DNA from: Burkholderiales bacterium
GTDB lineage: Bacteria > Pseudomonadota > Gammaproteobacteria > Burkholderiales > Burkholderiaceae_C
DNA: 64,000 nucleotides
NCBI GenBank assembly: GCA_003963005.1
Contig: RXJW01000048.1
Coordinates: forward strand, 1-64,000
Reading direction: 5' to 3'
The translations under genes were made by a program, and so were the position numbers. The notes beneath the pieces were generated by a model, which saw only the letters and a program-made list of their open reading frames with translations, made no database searches and was not told where the DNA came from. Shown here in pieces: positions 4,088-46,032 of this stretch (its first letter is position 1; each line of letters starts with the position of its first letter).

Positions 4088-6321
4088 CGCCCACGCTCAT
4101 GGTGCCCATCGGTCAACCCCTGGACGATCTGCCGCCGCGCCCGCGCGTGCTGCTGGTGGACGACGACGAAGTCAACCTGCTGTTGACCGCCGCAGCCCTG
4201 CGCGAGCGGGGTTTCGAAGTGAATGAAGCCGCCAGCGGCAGCGAAGCCCTGGGCCTGCTGTCCACCCGCACGCCCGACGTCGTCGTGCTGGACGCGCTGA
4301 TGCCCGAGCTCGACGGCTTCGAGACCTGCTCCCTGCTGCGCGCCACGCCGGGTTTCGAGTCCCTGCCGGTGCTGATGCTCACCGGCCTGGACGACGAAGC
4401 CTCGATCAACCGCGCCTACCAGGCCGGCGCCACCGATTTCTTCGTCAAGTCCTCGCAATGGAGCCTGCTGGACGGGCGCCTGCGCTACCTGCTGCGCAGT
4501 TCGCGCACCCGGCTGGAGCTGGAGCGCAGCAAGGCCAAGCTCGCGCGTGCCCAGGACCTCGCCCGCATGGGCAGCTTCGAGTGGTGGCGCGCGTCATCCG
4601 GCAGCTTCGCCATCTCCGCCGAAGGCCTGCGCGTGTTCGGCCGCGGCCCGCAGGACCGGCTCGATTTCATCGGCGTCATGCGGATGGTTCCGGCTGATGA
4701 CCGGCACGTGTTCCTGCGGCTGCTGCGTGACGTGATCGCCCACACCTCGGTGCTCGTGACCGACCTGCCGCTGACGCTGCCCGACGGCCGCCAGCGCGTG
4801 GTGCACATCGAGGCCGAGCCGGAGTTCAACGAGCAGGGCGGCGTCAGCGGCTACACCGGCATCCTGCAGGACGTGACCGACCGCCGGCAGGCCGAGGACC
4901 GCATCCGCCAGCTGGCGCATTTCGACGCCCTCACCGGCCTGCCCAACCGCCGCCAGCTCATCTACCGCGTGGAGCGGGCCATCGAGAGCGCGCGCCGCGG
5001 CGGCCACGAGGTCGGCCTGCTGCTGATCGACCTGGACCGCTTCAAGGTCATCAACGACACCCTCGGCCACGCGGCGGGCGACGAGTTGCTCGTCGAGGTG
5101 GGCCGGCGCCTGCGCGGCTGCGTGCGCCATTCTGACCAGATCCTCGAAGGCCTGCTCGACGGCCTGGGCAACCGCAGCCACCGCGGCCTGGAGGCCGTTG
5201 GTCGTCTGGGTGGCGACGAGTTCGTCGCCCTGCTGCCCGAAGTGGCCGACGAGCGCGATGCCGAGCGTGTCGCGCAGCGCGTGCTCGATGCCCTGCGCGA
5301 GCCGATCTTCGTCGGCGGGCAGGAATGCTTCGTCACCGCGAGCGTGGGCATTGCGCTCTACCCGCGCGACGGCCAGACCATGGCCGACCTGCTGCGCAAT
5401 TCGGACGTGGCCATGTACGCCGTCAAGAGCCAGGGCCGCAACGCCTCGGCCGTGTACTCGCCGCAACTCGCCGGCCACGGCAAGCAGAAGCTCGAACTCG
5501 AAAGCGCGCTGCACAAGGCACTGGAGCGCAACGAGATCGTGCTGCACTACCAGCCCAAGATCGACGTGCGCGCCGCGCGCATGGTGGGTGCCGAAGCCCT
5601 GATGCGCTGGCAGCGGGGCAACACCCTCGTGCCGCCGGCGGACTTCATTCCGCTGGCTGAAGAGACCGGCCTGATCGTGCCGCTGTCCGAGTGGGCGCTC
5701 AAGGAGGCCGCGCGGCAGGCCAAGTTGTGGCAGCTGCAGTTCGGCTTCTCCGACTCGATCGCCGTGAACCTGCCGAGCCGCCTGTTCGAGCGCACCGATC
5801 TCGTCGAGCACATCCACCAGTGCGTCAGTGCCTACGGCGTACCGCACCGGTCGATCCAGCTCGAGATCACCGAGAACAACCTGATGAAGGACCTGCAGAA
5901 CGTCATCCCGTCGCTGCACCGGCTCAACGAGGTGGGCGTCGAGATCTCGATCGACGATTTCGGCACCGGCTATTCGTCCCTCGCCTACCTGACCACATTG
6001 CCCATCTCCGAGGTCAAGGTCGACCGCACCTTCGTCCGTGACCTCGGCATCACGCCGCAGAGTTCGGCGGTGGTCACGGCCATCATCGCGCTGGCGCGAG
6101 CGCTCGGCCTGCGCGTCATCGCCGAGGGCGTGGAAACACTGCGGCAGATGGAAGTGCTGCACCGCCTGGGCTGCTCGCTGATGCAGGGCTTCCTGTTCAG
6201 CAAGCCGCTGCCGGCGGACGAACTCGAGCGCTGGATCGCGCAGACGGTGCTGCCGCGCAAGGCGCCCTGGATCACCCAGGCCGATCCTCCGATCGACCTC
6301 GTCACCCGCGGACAAGGCTGA
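4084..6321 (+). CDS. Receiver-PAS-GGDEF-EAL protein
   Basis: GTG start overlaps Hpt stop; VLLVDDDEVN receiver, LGGDEF, EALMRW and DDFGTGYSSL motifs. Confidence 0.9.
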   Translation: MTPTLMVPIGQPLDDLPPRPRVLLVDDDEVNLLLTAAALRERGFEVNEAASGSEALGLLSTRTPDVVVLDALMPELDGFETCSLLRATPGFESLPVLMLTGLDDEASINRAYQAGATDFFVKSSQWSLLDGRLRYLLRSSRTRLELERSKAKLARAQDLARMGSFEWWRASSGSFAISAEGLRVFGRGPQDRLDFIGVMRMVPADDRHVFLRLLRDVIAHTSVLVTDLPLTLPDGRQRVVHIEAEPEFNEQGGVSGYTGILQDVTDRRQAEDRIRQLAHFDALTGLPNRRQLIYRVERAIESARRGGHEVGLLLIDLDRFKVINDTLGHAAGDELLVEVGRRLRGCVRHSDQILEGLLDGLGNRSHRGLEAVGRLGGDEFVALLPEVADERDAERVAQRVLDALREPIFVGGQECFVTASVGIALYPRDGQTMADLLRNSDVAMYAVKSQGRNASAVYSPQLAGHGKQKLELESALHKALERNEIVLHYQPKIDVRAARMVGAEALMRWQRGNTLVPPADFIPLAEETGLIVPLSEWALKEAARQAKLWQLQFGFSDSIAVNLPSRLFERTDLVEHIHQCVSAYGVPHRSIQLEITENNLMKDLQNVIPSLHRLNEVGVEISIDDFGTGYSSLAYLTTLPISEVKVDRTFVRDLGITPQSSAVVTAIIALARALGLRVIAEGVETLRQMEVLHRLGCSLMQGFLFSKPLPADELERWIAQTVLPRKAPWITQADPPIDLVTRGQG

Positions 6322-13209: not shown

Positions 13210-15296
13210 GCTGTGCCTCCGATGATGGAGCCGATGCGGATGGTGTGGGTCTCAGGAATCTCGCTGTGGCCGAGCACCTTCAGGCGAGGTGCGGCGCGCC
13301 GCAGCAGCCGCGCCATCGGCGCGCGGATCAGGTCGGGCACCAGCAGCGTCGCGGGCACGCCGCGGTCTTCCTGCTTCTGGGCGGTCTCGGCAGCGCTCTT
13401 GGCCAGCGTGTCGGCCACGCCGGGGTCGAGTGCGGCGCCGTGCGGCGAATTCAGGGCCTGGGTGACGAGGCGCTCCAGCTCGGGCTCCAAGGCGATGACG
13501 TCCAGCTCCTTCACGCTGCCGTAGATCTGCTGGACGATGGCCGGTGCGATGTGGGTACGGATGCGGCGGGCCAGCTCCATCGGGTCGGTCACGGTGGCGG
13601 CGTTCTCGGCCAGGCATTCGACGATGGAGCGCATGTCGCGCACGTGCACGCCCTCCTCCAGCAGCAGTTGGAGCACGCGTTGCAGGGTGGCGATGCTGAC
13701 CATCTTCGGGATCACGTCTTCGATGAGTTGGGGCGCCTGCTTGGTGAGGTGTTCCACCAGCGACTGCGTCTCCACGCGACCCAACAACTTGGCCGCATGC
13801 ACTTGCATCAAGTGTGAAAGGTGGGTGGCCACGACAGTCGAGCAATCAACCACCGTAAAGCCGCTCATTTGGGCCATCTCCTTCTGACGCTCCTCGATCC
13901 ACACCGCCGGCAGGCCGAAGGCGGGGTCGGTGGTTTGCGTCCCCAGAAGCCTCTGCGTGGCATGGCCCGGGTTGATCGCCAGCCACATGCCGGGGAAGGC
14001 CTCGGCCTCGCCGACGACCGCGCCGCGCAGCGAGATGCGGTACTGGCTCGGGCGCAGCTCCAGGTTGTCGCGGATGTGCACCGGCGGCGGCAGGAAGCCC
14101 ACCTCCTGCGCGAACTTGCGGCGCACGCCCTTGATGCGGCTGAGCAGGTCGCCTTCCTTGTTCTTGTCGACCAGCGTGATCAGCCGGTAGCCGACCTCCA
14201 GGCCCAGCGTGTCCACGGGCACCAGGTCTTCCCAGCTGGCTTCGCCGGCGCCTTCGCTGCTCGGCATGATCGGCTTGACCGCCTTGGCGGCTTCCAGCGC
14301 CTGCTCCTTGGCGCGCAGCCAGTAGGCCAGGTAGCCCAGGCCGGCCGAGATCAGCAGGAACACGACGTGCGGCATGCCCGGAATCAGGCCCAGCGCACCG
14401 ATGACGCCGGCCGTGATCGCGATGCTCTTGGCCGAGCCGAACACCTGGCGACCGATCTGGCTGCCGATGTCCTTGTCGGTGCCCACCCGGGACACGACCA
14501 TGGCCGCGGCCACCGAGATCAGCAGCGCCGGCACCTGGGCCACGAGCGCGTCACCGACGGCCAGCAGGATGTAGCTGTTGGCGGCCTGGCCGGCACTGAG
14601 GTTGTGCTGGGCCACACCGATGATGAAGCCGCCGACGATGTTGATCGCCAAAATCAGCATGCCCGCCACCGCATCGCCGCGCACGAACTTGCTGGCACCG
14701 TCCATCGAGCCGAAGAAGTCCGCTTCGTCTGACAGCTCGGCCCGGCGGCGCTTGGCCTCGGCTTCGTTGATGAGGCCGGCGTTCAGGTCGGCGTCCACCG
14801 CCATCTGCTTGCCGGGCATCGCATCCAGCGTGAAGCGCGCGCCAACCTCGGCGATCCGCTCCGCGCCCTTGGTCACCACGATGAAGTTGATGACCACGAG
14901 GATGGCAAACACGATCAGGCCGACCGCGAAATTGCCGCCGATCAGGAAGTGCCCGAAGGCCTCGATCACCTTGCCGGCAGCACCCGTGCCGGTGTGGCCT
15001 TCCAGCAGCACCACCCGCGTGGACGCCACGTTCAGCGACAGGCGCATCAGCGTGGTCAGCAGCAGCACGGTCGGGAAGGCGGCGAAATCCAGCGGCCGCA
15101 CCATGTGGGCCGCGACCATCATCACCATCACGGCCATCGCGATATTGAAGGTGAACAGCAGGTCCAGCACGAAGGGCGGCAGCGGCAGCACCATCATGGA
15201 CAGCACGAGCAGCACCGCGATCGGCGCGCCGAGCGCCGCGATGATGCCGGCGCGCGGGCCGAGGAGAGATTGCAGCTTTTGAATCAGCGGGTTCAT
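13206..15296 (-). CDS. flhA: Flagellar export protein FlhA
   Basis: FNIAMAVMVMM, FPTVLLLTTLMRLSLNVASTR, FIIGVAQHNLSAGQA. Confidence 0.97.
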   Translation of the reverse strand: MNPLIQKLQSLLGPRAGIIAALGAPIAVLLVLSMMVLPLPPFVLDLLFTFNIAMAVMVMMVAAHMVRPLDFAAFPTVLLLTTLMRLSLNVASTRVVLLEGHTGTGAAGKVIEAFGHFLIGGNFAVGLIVFAILVVINFIVVTKGAERIAEVGARFTLDAMPGKQMAVDADLNAGLINEAEAKRRRAELSDEADFFGSMDGASKFVRGDAVAGMLILAINIVGGFIIGVAQHNLSAGQAANSYILLAVGDALVAQVPALLISVAAAMVVSRVGTDKDIGSQIGRQVFGSAKSIAITAGVIGALGLIPGMPHVVFLLISAGLGYLAYWLRAKEQALEAAKAVKPIMPSSEGAGEASWEDLVPVDTLGLEVGYRLITLVDKNKEGDLLSRIKGVRRKFAQEVGFLPPPVHIRDNLELRPSQYRISLRGAVVGEAEAFPGMWLAINPGHATQRLLGTQTTDPAFGLPAVWIEERQKEMAQMSGFTVVDCSTVVATHLSHLMQVHAAKLLGRVETQSLVEHLTKQAPQLIEDVIPKMVSIATLQRVLQLLLEEGVHVRDMRSIVECLAENAATVTDPMELARRIRTHIAPAIVQQIYGSVKELDVIALEPELERLVTQALNSPHGAALDPGVADTLAKSAAETAQKQEDRGVPATLLVPDLIRAPMARLLRRAAPRLKVLGHSEIPETHTIRIGSIIGGTA

Positions 15297-15308
15297 GTCA
15301 AGACTCTC

Positions 15309-15397
15309 GAACACAGCCACAGAGACACAGAGGCACAGAGGAATTCATGGGCAGGACACCGACTTCTCTGTGTCTCTGTGCCTCTGTGGCTGTGTTC
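15309..15397. repeat. Palindromic octamer-hairpin element copy 1 (flhB-flhA gap)
   Basis: Arms 15309-15340 and 15366-15397; 30/32 complementary by eye; arm = GAACACAG + CCACAGAG ACACAGAG GCACAGAG. Confidence 0.95.
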
Positions 15398-15419
15398 CTG
15401 GGCTGAGGCAGGCAGCGCG

Positions 15420-16595
15420 TCATTCCGCGAAGTCCTCATCCGGCTCCGGCGCCCAGCCCGGCTTGTTGTGCGGGTCAAGCTCGGGCGGCACGTGGGGCCT
15501 GGGCATGTCGGGCCGTGCGGCGTTGCGCGAGGCCATGGCGGCGCGCAGCTGGTAGACGTAGGCCAGCACCTGGGCGACGGCGCCAAACAGCGCCGCCGGG
15601 ATCTCGTGATCGAGCTTGGCGTGGGCGTACAGCGCACGGGCCAGCACCGGCTGCTGCAGCACGGGCACCTTGCTGTCCCTCGCGAGGTCGCGGATCTTCA
15701 TCGCCAGCAGGTCGGCGCCCTTGGCGACCACCTTGGGCGCGCTCATGCGGCCTTCTTCGTACTTGAGTGCGACGGCGTAGTGGGTCGGGTTCATGACCAC
15801 GAGATCCGCCTTGGGCACCGCCGCCAGCATGCGGCGCTTGGCCATCTCGCGCATGCGGGCGCGCATCTTGGCCTTGACCTCGAGGTTGCCCTCCACCTCT
15901 TTCAGTTCCTGCTTGGCCTCTTCGCGCGTCATGCGCATGCGGCGCAGCCAGAGCTGGCGCTGCAAGGGCACGTCGATGGCGGCGAAGACGGCCAGCGCAA
16001 TGGCCAGCAGCATCAGGCCGCCCATCAGCTGCTGGCCGGCGTAGGCCAGGGCCGACGGCAGCGGCACCGACATGATGCTCACGTAGGCGGCCAGCCGGTC
16101 CCTCAGCACCATCGCGCCGACGATGCCAAGCACCACCGCCAGCAGGACCGCCTTCAGCGCGGTGCCGAAACCCTGGCCGGACACGAGCCGCCCCAGCCCA
16201 GCGATCGGGTCGAGATGGGAGAACTTCGGCGCGAGCGGCTTCATGGTCCAGTTCCAGCCGCCGCTGGCCACGTGGCTGGCGATGCCCACCATCACCATCA
16301 GCGCCGCGATCGGCCCCATCACCGCCGCAAAGGCGAGCGTCATGTCGACCAGGCGCTCGCCCATGAAGCCAGGCCGCGCGAGCAGCGCGGCATCGAAGTG
16401 CAGGCCGGTGCCAAGCATCTGGCGCAGGCGGTCGACGATCTGCGGGCCACCGATGCTCAGCACCGCGCCGCCCGCGACCATCATCGCGAAGTGCGGCAGG
16501 TCACGCGAACGCGGCAGCTGGCCCTCGGCCCGAGATTTCTGGATCTTCTTGGGCGAGGCGGGTAGGTGGCGGTCTTGTGCGTCGTGGTCGGCCAT
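15420..16595 (-). CDS. flhB: Flagellar export protein FlhB
   Basis: ASPKKIQKSRAEGQLPRSRDL; VVMNPTHYAVALKYEEG (NPTH autocleavage site). Confidence 0.97.
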   Translation of the reverse strand: MADHDAQDRHLPASPKKIQKSRAEGQLPRSRDLPHFAMMVAGGAVLSIGGPQIVDRLRQMLGTGLHFDAALLARPGFMGERLVDMTLAFAAVMGPIAALMVMVGIASHVASGGWNWTMKPLAPKFSHLDPIAGLGRLVSGQGFGTALKAVLLAVVLGIVGAMVLRDRLAAYVSIMSVPLPSALAYAGQQLMGGLMLLAIALAVFAAIDVPLQRQLWLRRMRMTREEAKQELKEVEGNLEVKAKMRARMREMAKRRMLAAVPKADLVVMNPTHYAVALKYEEGRMSAPKVVAKGADLLAMKIRDLARDSKVPVLQQPVLARALYAHAKLDHEIPAALFGAVAQVLAYVYQLRAAMASRNAARPDMPRPHVPPELDPHNKPGWAPEPDEDFAE

Positions 16596-17861: not shown

Positions 17862-18845
17862 CTAGCGCGTCGGCGCGGGCGGCTGAGTTTGCGGCATTTT
17901 CCCGCCGCGCGGGACTTCCGTGGGGGCGCCGCCGGCAGCCGCCGCAGCCGGGGTGTCGGCGTCGGGCTCGTCGGGCAGGTTCTTCAGCACAGCGTCTTCG
18001 GCATCGCGGTTCATGACGATGATGCTGATGCGGCGATTCAGGGCGCCGTTGGGGTCTTTCGCGTCCAGCAGCTTGCTGGCCGCCAGGCCCTGCACGCGCA
18101 GCATGCGCGCTTCGGACAGCCCGCCGGCCACCAACTCGCGGCGGGAGGCGTTCGCGCGGTCGGCCGACAGCTCCCAATTGCTGTAGCCCTTGTCACCGCC
18201 CGGGAAGGGCTGGGCATCGGTGTGCCCCTCCACCGTGAGGCGGTTGGGCACCTCGGTCAGCACGCTGCCGAGTTCGCGCAGCAACTCGCGCATGTAGGGC
18301 TTCACGACGGCGCTGCCGCTGTCGAACATCGGGCGGTTGCCTTCGTCGACGATCTGGATGCGCAGGCCTTCCTTGGTCATGTCCAGGCGGATCTGGCCAC
18401 CCAGCGCCGCGAGCTTGGGGTTCTCGGCCAGCACTTCCTCGACCTTGGTCTTGAGCTGCTCCAGGCGCGCGCGCTCGGCCTTGCGCTGCTCTTCCTTCAG
18501 TGCGCGCAGCGTGTAGCTCGACTTGCGCGCCTCGCTCTCGCCTTCCTTGACCTGGCCCGTCTCGCGCGTGAGGTCCTTGCCGCCCCCGCGCACGACGCTG
18601 GAGGAGTCGCCGGAGCCGGAGCCGCCGAGCATCGCCACCCGCAGGGGTGACTGGAAGAACTCGGCGATGCCCTTCTTGTCGCCCTCGGTCGTGGAGCCGA
18701 GCAGCCACATCAGCAGGAAGAAGGCCATCATGGCCGTGACGAAGTCGGCGTAGGCGATCTTCCACGCGCCGCCATGCGCCGCGTGGCCACCCTTCTTCAC
18801 CTTCTTGACGATGATCGGCTGGAGCTTCTTGGCGTCACCGGCCAC
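17862..18845 (-). CDS. motB: Flagellar stator protein MotB
   Basis: GTG start; GAWKIAYADFVTAMMAFFLLMWLLG; OmpA-like LTVEGHTDAQPF. Confidence 0.95.
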   Translation of the reverse strand: MAGDAKKLQPIIVKKVKKGGHAAHGGAWKIAYADFVTAMMAFFLLMWLLGSTTEGDKKGIAEFFQSPLRVAMLGGSGSGDSSSVVRGGGKDLTRETGQVKEGESEARKSSYTLRALKEEQRKAERARLEQLKTKVEEVLAENPKLAALGGQIRLDMTKEGLRIQIVDEGNRPMFDSGSAVVKPYMRELLRELGSVLTEVPNRLTVEGHTDAQPFPGGDKGYSNWELSADRANASRRELVAGGLSEARMLRVQGLAASKLLDAKDPNGALNRRISIIVMNRDAEDAVLKNLPDEPDADTPAAAAAGGAPTEVPRGGKMPQTQPPAPTR

Positions 18846-18865
18846 GGCGTTCCCCCAAGGTTAGA

Positions 18866-18941
18866 CAACACAGCCACAGAGGCACAGAGACACAGAGAAA
18901 TCCGTGCCTCTCTGTGTCTCTGTGCCTCTGTGGCTGTGTTG
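18866..18941. repeat. Palindromic octamer-hairpin element copy 2 (motA-motB gap), perfect 32-bp arms
   Basis: 18866-18897 CAACACAGCCACAGAGGCACAGAGACACAGAG is the exact reverse complement of 18910-18941; 12-nt loop. Confidence 0.97.
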
Positions 18942-18959
18942 CTGGGGCGTGGGCAGGCA

Positions 18960-19817
18960 TCACTTCTTCTTCACGTGGCTTTCGAGCTCGCTGAACGAGG
19001 GGCGATCGCCGGAGAACAGGACTTTGCGGCCGAACTCGATGGCCACCTGCGGGGCGTAGCCCTGCATGCTGGCCAGCAGCGTGGTCTTGATGCACTGGAA
19101 TTCCTTGCCGGCGTCTTCCACCTTCTGCTCGAGCAGACCGGCCAGCGGCTCCGCGAAGCCGTAGGCCAGCAGAATGCCCAGGAAGGTGCCGACCAGCGCC
19201 GAGCCGATCATGCCGCCCAGCACGGCCGGCGGCTGGCCGACCGAGCCCATCGTGTTCACGACACCCAGCACCGCAGCGACGATACCGAAGGCCGGCAGGC
19301 CACCCGCCAGGCGCTGCAGCGCGGCCACGGCGGCGTGTTCTTCCTGGTGGTGGGTCTCGATCTCGCTGTCCATCAGCGACTCGATCTCGTGCGCGTTCAG
19401 GTTGCCCGACACCATCATGCGCAGGTAGTCGGTGATGAATTCGGTGACGTGGTGGTCGTTGCCCACCACCGGATACTTCTGGAACAGCGGGCTGGAGTGC
19501 GGGTCCTCGACGTCTTTTTCGATCGACATCAGGCCCTCCTTGCGGGCCTTCTGCAGGATGTCGTACATCAGCGCCAGCAGTTCCATGTAGCGCGCCTTGC
19601 TGTACTTGCCGCCCTTGAAGCACAGCCCCAGCCCGGCGGCCGTGGCCTTGACGACCTTCATCTGGTTGTTGGCCAGGAAAGCGCCGATGGCAGCGCCGAA
19701 GATGGTGATCATCTCGAAGGGCAAGGCGTGCAGGATGACGCCGATGTTCCCGCCGTGGGCGATGAACACGCCGAAGATGCAGGCCATGGAGATGGCCCAG
19801 CCGATGATGACGAACAT
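18960..19817 (-). CDS. motA: Flagellar stator protein MotA
   Basis: MFVIIGWAISMACIFGVFIAHGG; GIVAAVLGVVNTMGS. Confidence 0.95.
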   Translation of the reverse strand: MFVIIGWAISMACIFGVFIAHGGNIGVILHALPFEMITIFGAAIGAFLANNQMKVVKATAAGLGLCFKGGKYSKARYMELLALMYDILQKARKEGLMSIEKDVEDPHSSPLFQKYPVVGNDHHVTEFITDYLRMMVSGNLNAHEIESLMDSEIETHHQEEHAAVAALQRLAGGLPAFGIVAAVLGVVNTMGSVGQPPAVLGGMIGSALVGTFLGILLAYGFAEPLAGLLEQKVEDAGKEFQCIKTTLLASMQGYAPQVAIEFGRKVLFSGDRPSFSELESHVKKK

Positions 19818-19845
19818 GCGCGGTCGAGTTGGGGATGTTCAGACC

Positions 19846-19872
19846 TTATCGGCCTGCTGCCGGGGGGCTTGA
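19846..19872 (-). promoter_or_regulatory. Sigma-28 promoter upstream of motA
   Basis: Minus strand TCAAGCCC-N11-GCCGATAA, 29 nt upstream of the motA start. Confidence 0.8.
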
Positions 19873-19906
19873 GAAAGTATGCCGCGCCGAGGCTGCCGGC
19901 AAGCAT

Positions 19907-20662
19907 TCATTTGGCCCGCTTTGGTGCGCCTTTCCGCACAGGCCGGTAAACCCACACGGTCTGGCCGCTTGCGATCGACCAACTCGCCACGGGCACCACG
20001 TCGGGTACGGCGAAGTCCAGGCTGACCAGCCAGGCGCCTTCAGCCATCTCGTCGCAGGCCTTGGCCCAGACCCGTGGCATCGACTCCGGCCGCTGAAAGA
20101 CGTAGACCAGGGCGAAAGCCGCCCAGTGGTCGGCCCACAGGTCCCCACGCCGCACCACCGCCCCCGGGACGCGCCACCGGGCCAGCCACGCAAGCGGCCG
20201 GCTCCATTCCACGCCCTCCACCGCCGCACCCGGGCAGGCGTGAAGCAATTCACGCAAGCCATCGCCGAGCCCGCAACCCGCATCGAGCACCCGGGCGCCG
20301 GGCGGCAGCGGCGCGTGGGCGGCCAGGGGGGTCAGCGCCCCCACCGGGGTTGGGAACAGCGGCGCCTCCGACCAGCTGCGCCGCGGGTAGAGCCACCACA
20401 GCAGGGCCAGCAGCACGAGCCAGAGCCACGCGGGCAAGTGCTCCTGCCCGCCGAGGATCAAGGCCGACACCGGAAAGCCGGCGGCAGCCATCACACGGCG
20501 CCACGGTGTCGGGTGGAGCCATGCGAGCGCCCCGCCGACTGCGGTGCCGAGCAACCAGGCCAGCTCCGCGCCAGCCCCCTGTGCCAGCATCCGCACCGCC
20601 CAGGCAGCCAGCCAGACCCACAGGGCCGACAAGGGCCAGGCGGTGAGCCTGTGCCTCAGCAC
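19907..20662 (-). CDS. Membrane-anchored class I SAM-dependent methyltransferase
   Basis: N-terminal hydrophobic segments then ARVLDAGCGLGDGLREL SAM motif. Confidence 0.75.
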   Translation of the reverse strand: MLRHRLTAWPLSALWVWLAAWAVRMLAQGAGAELAWLLGTAVGGALAWLHPTPWRRVMAAAGFPVSALILGGQEHLPAWLWLVLLALLWWLYPRRSWSEAPLFPTPVGALTPLAAHAPLPPGARVLDAGCGLGDGLRELLHACPGAAVEGVEWSRPLAWLARWRVPGAVVRRGDLWADHWAAFALVYVFQRPESMPRVWAKACDEMAEGAWLVSLDFAVPDVVPVASWSIASGQTVWVYRPVRKGAPKRAK

Positions 20663-39510: not shown

Positions 39511-39587
39511 GAAACACGCCACAGAGACGCAGAGACACAGAGACACGCCGTCTCTCTCTGTGTCTCTGTGTCTCGGTGGCTGTGTTC
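39511..39587. repeat. Palindromic octamer-hairpin element copy 3 (fliG-fliH gap)
   Basis: Arms 39511-39542 and 39556-39587, 26/32 ungapped matches by eye; same octamers as copies 1-2. Confidence 0.9.
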
Positions 39588-45935: not shown

Positions 45936-46032
45936 GAACACAGCCAAAGAGACACAAAGGCACAGACACAGCACGCTGGTGGCGAAGGCCTGACCTCTCT
46001 GTGTCTGTGTGCCTCCGTGGCACTTCGTGTTC
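45936..46032. repeat. Degenerate palindromic octamer-hairpin element copy 4 (fliN-fliO gap)
   Basis: GAACACAGCCAAAGAGACACAAAGGCACAGACACAG ... CTCTCTGTGTCTGTGTGCCTCCGTGGCACTTCGTGTTC. Confidence 0.85.

Follow-up and report, generated by a model that had tools for sequence, protein, structure and literature searches.

A dispersed CACAGAG-heptamer palindrome, probably a mobile REP/MITE-like repeat, between motA and motB in Roseateles

Dispersed palindromic repeats are common, and are normally lineage-specific and tied to RAYT transposases. NEMIS/Correia, ERIC and YPAL sequences are dispersed hairpin repeats that are co-transcribed with their neighbours, and some are cleaved by RNase III or alter mRNA stability. 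Stabilising hairpins between cistrons, such as the malE-malF REP and that of the puf operon, have experimentally shown effects. REP, BIME and REPIN sequences, which occur with RAYT transposases, are short extragenic palindromes present in many copies (PMC2817692, PMC3116915, PMC6006769). Atypical secondary structures associated with class 3 TnpA-Y1 genes have been described in Planctomycetes, Acidobacteria and Proteobacteria, with a CnGA foot adjoining the class 3 gene (PMC6006769), and GTAG- and CGTC-tagged palindromic intergenic repeats have been catalogued across prokaryotes (PMC3733652). Differential decay within operons has been described in E. coli (PMC5927463).

The motA-motB hairpin and its family

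The window, i.e. the whole stretch of 64 000 nt that was analysed, comes from a bacterium whose genus is Roseateles (including Pelomonas). On its minus strand, the motA stop codon (18960-18962) and the motB GTG (18845-18843) flank a perfect hairpin, which an earlier note had described as having arms of 32 nt, built from octamers, around a 12-nt loop, about 18 nt from the motA stop and about 20 nt from the motB start. A repeat search of the window found the same structure as arms of 33 nt, 100 % complementary and 10 nt apart, at exactly those two distances (Table 1); no other perfect inverted repeat in the window is as long. The arm consists of CAACACAGC and then three CACAGAG heptamers, linked by a single purine into an 8-nt register, and the octamer motif CACAGAGNCACAGAG had 21 matches in the window (two or fewer mismatches) against 0.7 expected. 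The sense RNA of the hairpin has a predicted folding energy of -84.4 kcal/mol (z = -11.3 against 200 shuffles).

Table 1. Coordinates of the motA-motB hairpin, its flanking genes and the other family copies in the window
Feature	Position	Strand	Remarks
Left arm	18866..18898	.	CAACACAGC and three CACAGAG heptamers; 3' arm in motA-motB sense; exact complement of 18909-18941
Spacer/loop	18899..18908	.	Variable part of the family; loops diverge, heptamers kept
Right arm	18909..18941	.	Three CTCTGTG heptamers and GCTGTGTTG; 5' arm in motA-motB sense
motA	18960..19817	-	Upstream gene; stop 18 nt from hairpin
motB	17862..18845	-	Downstream gene; GTG start 20 nt past hairpin
Second family copy	15309..15397	.	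Between flhB and flhA
Third family copy	39511..39587	.	Between two co-directional genes
Fourth family copy, degenerate	45936..46018	.	Orthologous place in Roseateles puraquae (G019) has a better-preserved copy

Beyond what the earlier note had described, three more copies of the same element lie in the window and dozens in the genome. The family has the form (G)AACACAGC-(CACAGAGR)x3-variable loop-(YCTCTGTG)x3-GCTGTGTT(C). A genome search returned 73 + 74 heptamer-pair matches, and retrieval of the listed places gave at least 41 two-armed copies, four of them within the window; copy numbers from pattern searches are lower bounds throughout. Arms are alike between copies, while the loops, from 10 to about 75 nt long, are mostly unrelated. 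None of the at least 41 two-armed copies lies inside a predicted gene. The family shares with MITEs its terminal inverted repeats, non-coding nature and multiple copies, and with REP sequences its many extragenic palindromic copies per genome (at least 41). The motA-motB hairpin is thus a copy of a dispersed palindromic repeat, an identification held with very high confidence, and this REP/MITE-like family is probably mobile. Copies are open in most reading frames, which produces spurious ORFs encoding the peptides HRGTETQR and LCASVSLWLC (15293-15637, minus strand, and 18774-19949, plus strand, of the window); hypothetical proteins with these motifs in databases are probably this CACAGAG hairpin repeat.

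Placement was assessed against gene calls from a simple codon-usage caller made for this analysis. Of the 40 copies of this genome that could be classified, 37 are flanked by co-directional genes, two lie in convergent gaps and one in a divergent gap. Co-directional gaps with no more than 80 nt besides the element contain 33 of the 40, although this compartment comprises 9 % of intergenic DNA (P about 3e-28), whereas divergent gaps, with 26 % of intergenic DNA, contain one. Copies in other Roseateles are distributed likewise (50 of 65 in such short co-directional gaps). The element follows the stop codon by 0-58 nt (median about 16) and mostly precedes the next start by 10-45 nt. Tens of unrelated gene pairs are separated in this way, e.g. 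flhB/flhA, paaK/A, paaA/B, paaD/E and paaE/R in the operons paaK-A-B and paaD-E-R (L013) and genes of a liv-type branched-chain amino-acid ABC operon (L014), the paa and ABC gene names having been assigned by reading translated sequences. In the Gemmatimonadota genome MAG68, copies lie about 12 nt past stop codons, with 36 of 82 in convergent gaps and one in a divergent gap. Copies are therefore found almost solely just 3' of stop codons, which in Roseateles means within operons.

Conservation and distribution

Between congeners, 28 non-identical positional matches showed differences of 3.5 % in the heptamers, 44 % at the inter-heptamer base, 42 % in loops and 34 % in flanks; these figures should be read with caution because some of the pairs may be independent insertions at one junction. 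A strict set of seven orthologous pairs with homologous loops gave 4.8 % for heptamers, 17.7 % for loops, 21 % for the inter-heptamer base and 18.9 % for flanks (Fisher P = 5e-5 for heptamers against loops and 3e-8 against flanks). At orthologous sites the rate of change in the heptamers is thus about a quarter of that in loops or flanks and the inter-heptamer base is free to vary, though heptamer conservation is partly ascertained since the finder requires recognisable heptamers. Covariation between the arms was essentially absent in Roseateles: the inter-heptamer bases of the two arms are nearly independent, single heptamer changes have no compensating change, and in the sense RNA there was no excess of G.U over A.C (99 versus 88). 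This indicates that in Roseateles it is the sequence, not the pairing, that is held. The lack of a pairing constraint argues only weakly against an RNA role because a 33-bp stem tolerates mismatches. The arms in MAG68 do covary (Fisher P = 6e-6 and 7e-8), indicating that pairing matters in that genome. Slow change of the heptamers around a freely varying base suggests that they are maintained for their sequence and not through selection on pairing; such sequence-specific maintenance is considered fairly probable.

The family is patchily distributed. Among 20 Roseateles species, eight had no pattern match and the top species had 131 matches (about 70 copies); at the level of the order, nine of 300 genomes matched the family pattern. 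Matches listed for the strict pattern, with three heptamers per arm, include Betaproteobacteria (Rhodocyclaceae, Thiobacillus, Propionivibrio and others), Alphaproteobacteria, Gemmatimonadota, Acidobacteriota, Planctomycetota, Bacteroidota (among them Bacteroides sp. 519), Chloroflexota (Chloroflexales), Verrucomicrobiota, one actinobacterial MAG and others. Many carriers are MAGs, so single cross-phylum cases may be contamination, and two Methylotenera MAG contigs with the hairpin resemble Roseateles-type DNA. MAG68, with many copies of the triple-heptamer hairpin, Bacteroides sp. 519 and Thiobacillus each have several copies in their own sequence style. The outer ends vary by lineage (AACACAGC, ATGCAAC, CTCA, TTCAC or AAC) around a constant heptamer core. 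One MAG68 locus (L097:344-406) has eight tandem CACAGAG octamers (seven overlapping octamer-pair matches), which suggests an arm expanded by slippage. A plasmid search gave no match to the family, a result that a low-complexity filter may affect by masking one. Among viral contigs, a single one (IMGVR_UViG_3300045950_000093) was found to have hairpin copies, two in number (L322:1062-1279); it is possibly a vehicle, or a misclassified host fragment.

Spread and possible effects on operon mRNA

Evidence of recent spread comes from Roseateles caseinilyticus (G010), in which the 80-bp hairpins of a young subfamily share a conserved tail and have loops that are related to one another and occur in either orientation; that loop and flanking tail are common to its members indicates copying. 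In several of these copies (L292, L308, L309 and L316) the 3' tail is conserved over about 55 nt, up to a terminal CTGACATG at the start codon that follows; the distance from the preceding stop is often fixed at 11 nt, as if the whole intergenic cassette had been copied. Two hairpins of Roseateles oligotrophus (G032; L205:2291-2350 and 4784-4843) are identical, with their flanks, and 2.5 kb apart; this pair is probably a segmental duplication. No obvious target-site duplication was found in flanks by inspection, no autonomous element sharing the hairpin termini among the loci retrieved, and no mobilising enzyme or heptamer-binding protein.

An extragenic palindromic doublet with a spacer, in high copy number and with bursts, is what would be expected of a REP/REPIN mobilised by a RAYT, a Y1 tyrosine transposase, and Y1 genes are present in all 20 Roseateles (RAYT, PF01797); 11 of the 12 carriers from other groups have them too. 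However, these genes occur equally in the eight congeners without pattern matches, copy number is uncorrelated with them, no CACAGAG run lies within about 1.5 kb of the 30 Y1 loci retrieved, and one carrier genome has no Y1 match. The family also has no GTAG/GTGG or CGTC foot, its outer ends being AACACAGC, ATGCAAC, CTCA or TTCAC according to lineage. In MAG68, an IS200-like transposase gene does lie between two CACAGAG hairpins (L335:1380-1990), but it was not counted as a mobiliser because it has different inverted ends of its own (GGGGGATGAATCCCCC, AAGCCCGCTGAAGCGGGCT). Mobilisation by RAYT is considered improbable, and was rejected for Roseateles since the genes are present irrespective of copy number with no copies adjoining them.

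The earlier note had proposed that a strong hairpin here could stabilise motA mRNA or lower motB translation, stators needing more MotA than MotB (5:2). Its premise holds in that the hairpin is very stable and lies at an operon junction, and in this species the 5' flank (CCCCA) is predicted to pair additionally with the G-rich ribosome-binding region of motB. This pairing is not kept in G010, G014 and R. puraquae, the three congeners with an orthologous hairpin in the motA-motB gap; two more (G006, G008) have a variant with other ends. Moreover, the same element separates dozens of unrelated genes, the gap has no repeat at all in five of 20 congeners (G001, G002, G007, G012 and G018), and about six species have a different GC-rich repeat there (e.g. 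GGCGCCCCCCTGGGGGGG...GGCGCTTCGGGGGG; L043, L044, L047, L048, L049 and L056). With five of 20 congeners lacking any repeat and some six having another, a dedicated device for stator stoichiometry appears highly improbable, and the comparison between species makes an adaptation of the stator ratio unlikely. The GGCGCCCCCCTGGGGGGG...GGCGCTTCGGGGGG pattern was not found in the window. The presence of a different repeat in the same gap suggests that the motA-motB junction is a repeat hotspot or repeat-tolerant. The case also shows that an eye-catching hairpin flanked by interesting genes may turn out to be a generic repeat.

An RNA function selected in many operons, motA-motB included, as a 3'-to-5' exonuclease barrier, RNase III site or means of translational decoupling, would account for the extreme enrichment in short operon gaps after stop codons, the near absence from divergent gaps and the very stable RNA fold. 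It would also fit the asymmetric end AACAAAGC of the R. caseinilyticus copies, which faces the upstream gene in about 20 of 26 cases (P = 0.009), and the placement, convergent-gap share and covarying arms of MAG68 copies. Yet the same junction is patchy even among congeners, inter-heptamer pairs are not kept paired in Roseateles, G.U is not favoured over A.C, and the heptamer sequence is kept while adjacent stem positions are not. Such a selected function is therefore somewhat unlikely. The position at gene 3' ends would suit an intrinsic or bidirectional terminator, and the MAG68 copies, enriched in convergent gaps, have an extended GGCTCA...TGAGCC base. In Roseateles, however, the element usually occurs in true operons with only 10-45 nt between it and the following start codon, too little to accommodate a promoter; a scan gave no terminator-like site at the motA-motB hairpin, which lacks the arrangement of a GC-rich stem followed by a U-tract; and T-rich tails are infrequent (at least five T in eight nt in 14 of 37 copies of this genome and eight of 45 in MAG68). 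A terminator is accordingly quite improbable. A search of Rfam 15 gave nothing above the gathering score, and the sub-threshold matches were to miRNA-precursor models only, a hairpin artefact.

The reading favoured, with reasonable but far from full confidence, is that of a dispersed, non-coding CACAGAG-heptamer palindrome of REP/MITE type, maintained sequence-specifically, with possible generic mRNA effects as a by-product at motA-motB. As a non-autonomous element, it would spread in bursts; its heptamers would be recognised sequence-specifically by a putative protein or recombination process, by which the element would be maintained; and it may persist at the 3' ends of genes because it does least harm there or is mildly beneficial. 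A stem of at least 33 bp would form in motA-motB RNA and could shield the motA part from 3'-to-5' decay, serve as a cleavage site for RNase III or uncouple the translation of motB, effects that would be generic to the element and not stator-specific regulation. Because the hairpin is very stable and the family is enriched at operon junctions, the polycistronic mRNA may plausibly be affected; that the effect is appreciable for motA/motB is a possibility, though a somewhat doubtful one. A broader proposal, that a conserved putative factor recognises inverted CACAGAG arrays at 8-nt spacing and places or retains palindromes right after stop codons across phyla as a pan-bacterial system, which would provide many unrelated operons of distant phyla with one shared intercistronic hairpin, is speculative and rather unlikely.

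Comparison with known systems

A search of the open-access literature gave no match to the arm sequences and no earlier description of the family; its topical matches were papers on REP sequences, stem-loops and triplexes. The CACAGAG motif is not mentioned in the paper on GTAG/CGTC palindromes (PMC3733652), whose repeats are likewise palindromic and intergenic but bear tag tetranucleotides that are absent here. The family thus looks undescribed. High-copy atypical hairpins and some phyla are shared with the class 3 TnpA-Y1 structures; however, the Y1 genes of this genome have the motifs NHFH and YIELNP and lie away from the CACAGAG element. NEMIS/Correia, ERIC and YPAL differ in sequence and length and are confined to narrow lineages, and no target duplication was seen in the CACAGAG family. 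Like the malE-malF and puf hairpins, the motA-motB copy lies between co-transcribed genes and could protect the upstream segment, but it is known here from position and predicted stability.

The resemblance to REP, BIME and REPIN sequences is in the inverted halves around a spacer, the patchy bursts among relatives and the location mostly at gene 3' ends. The differences are the arms of tandem heptamers in an 8-nt register, the free loops, and the absence of both a GTAG/CGTC foot and any association with RAYT found here. Whereas REPs are species-specific, the CACAGAG arms are almost identical across phyla. The same arms in many phyla, the heptamers as their most constrained part and the placement after stop codons within operons together make the family a tractable test case for the spread of repeats between phyla and for the tuning of operon mRNA.
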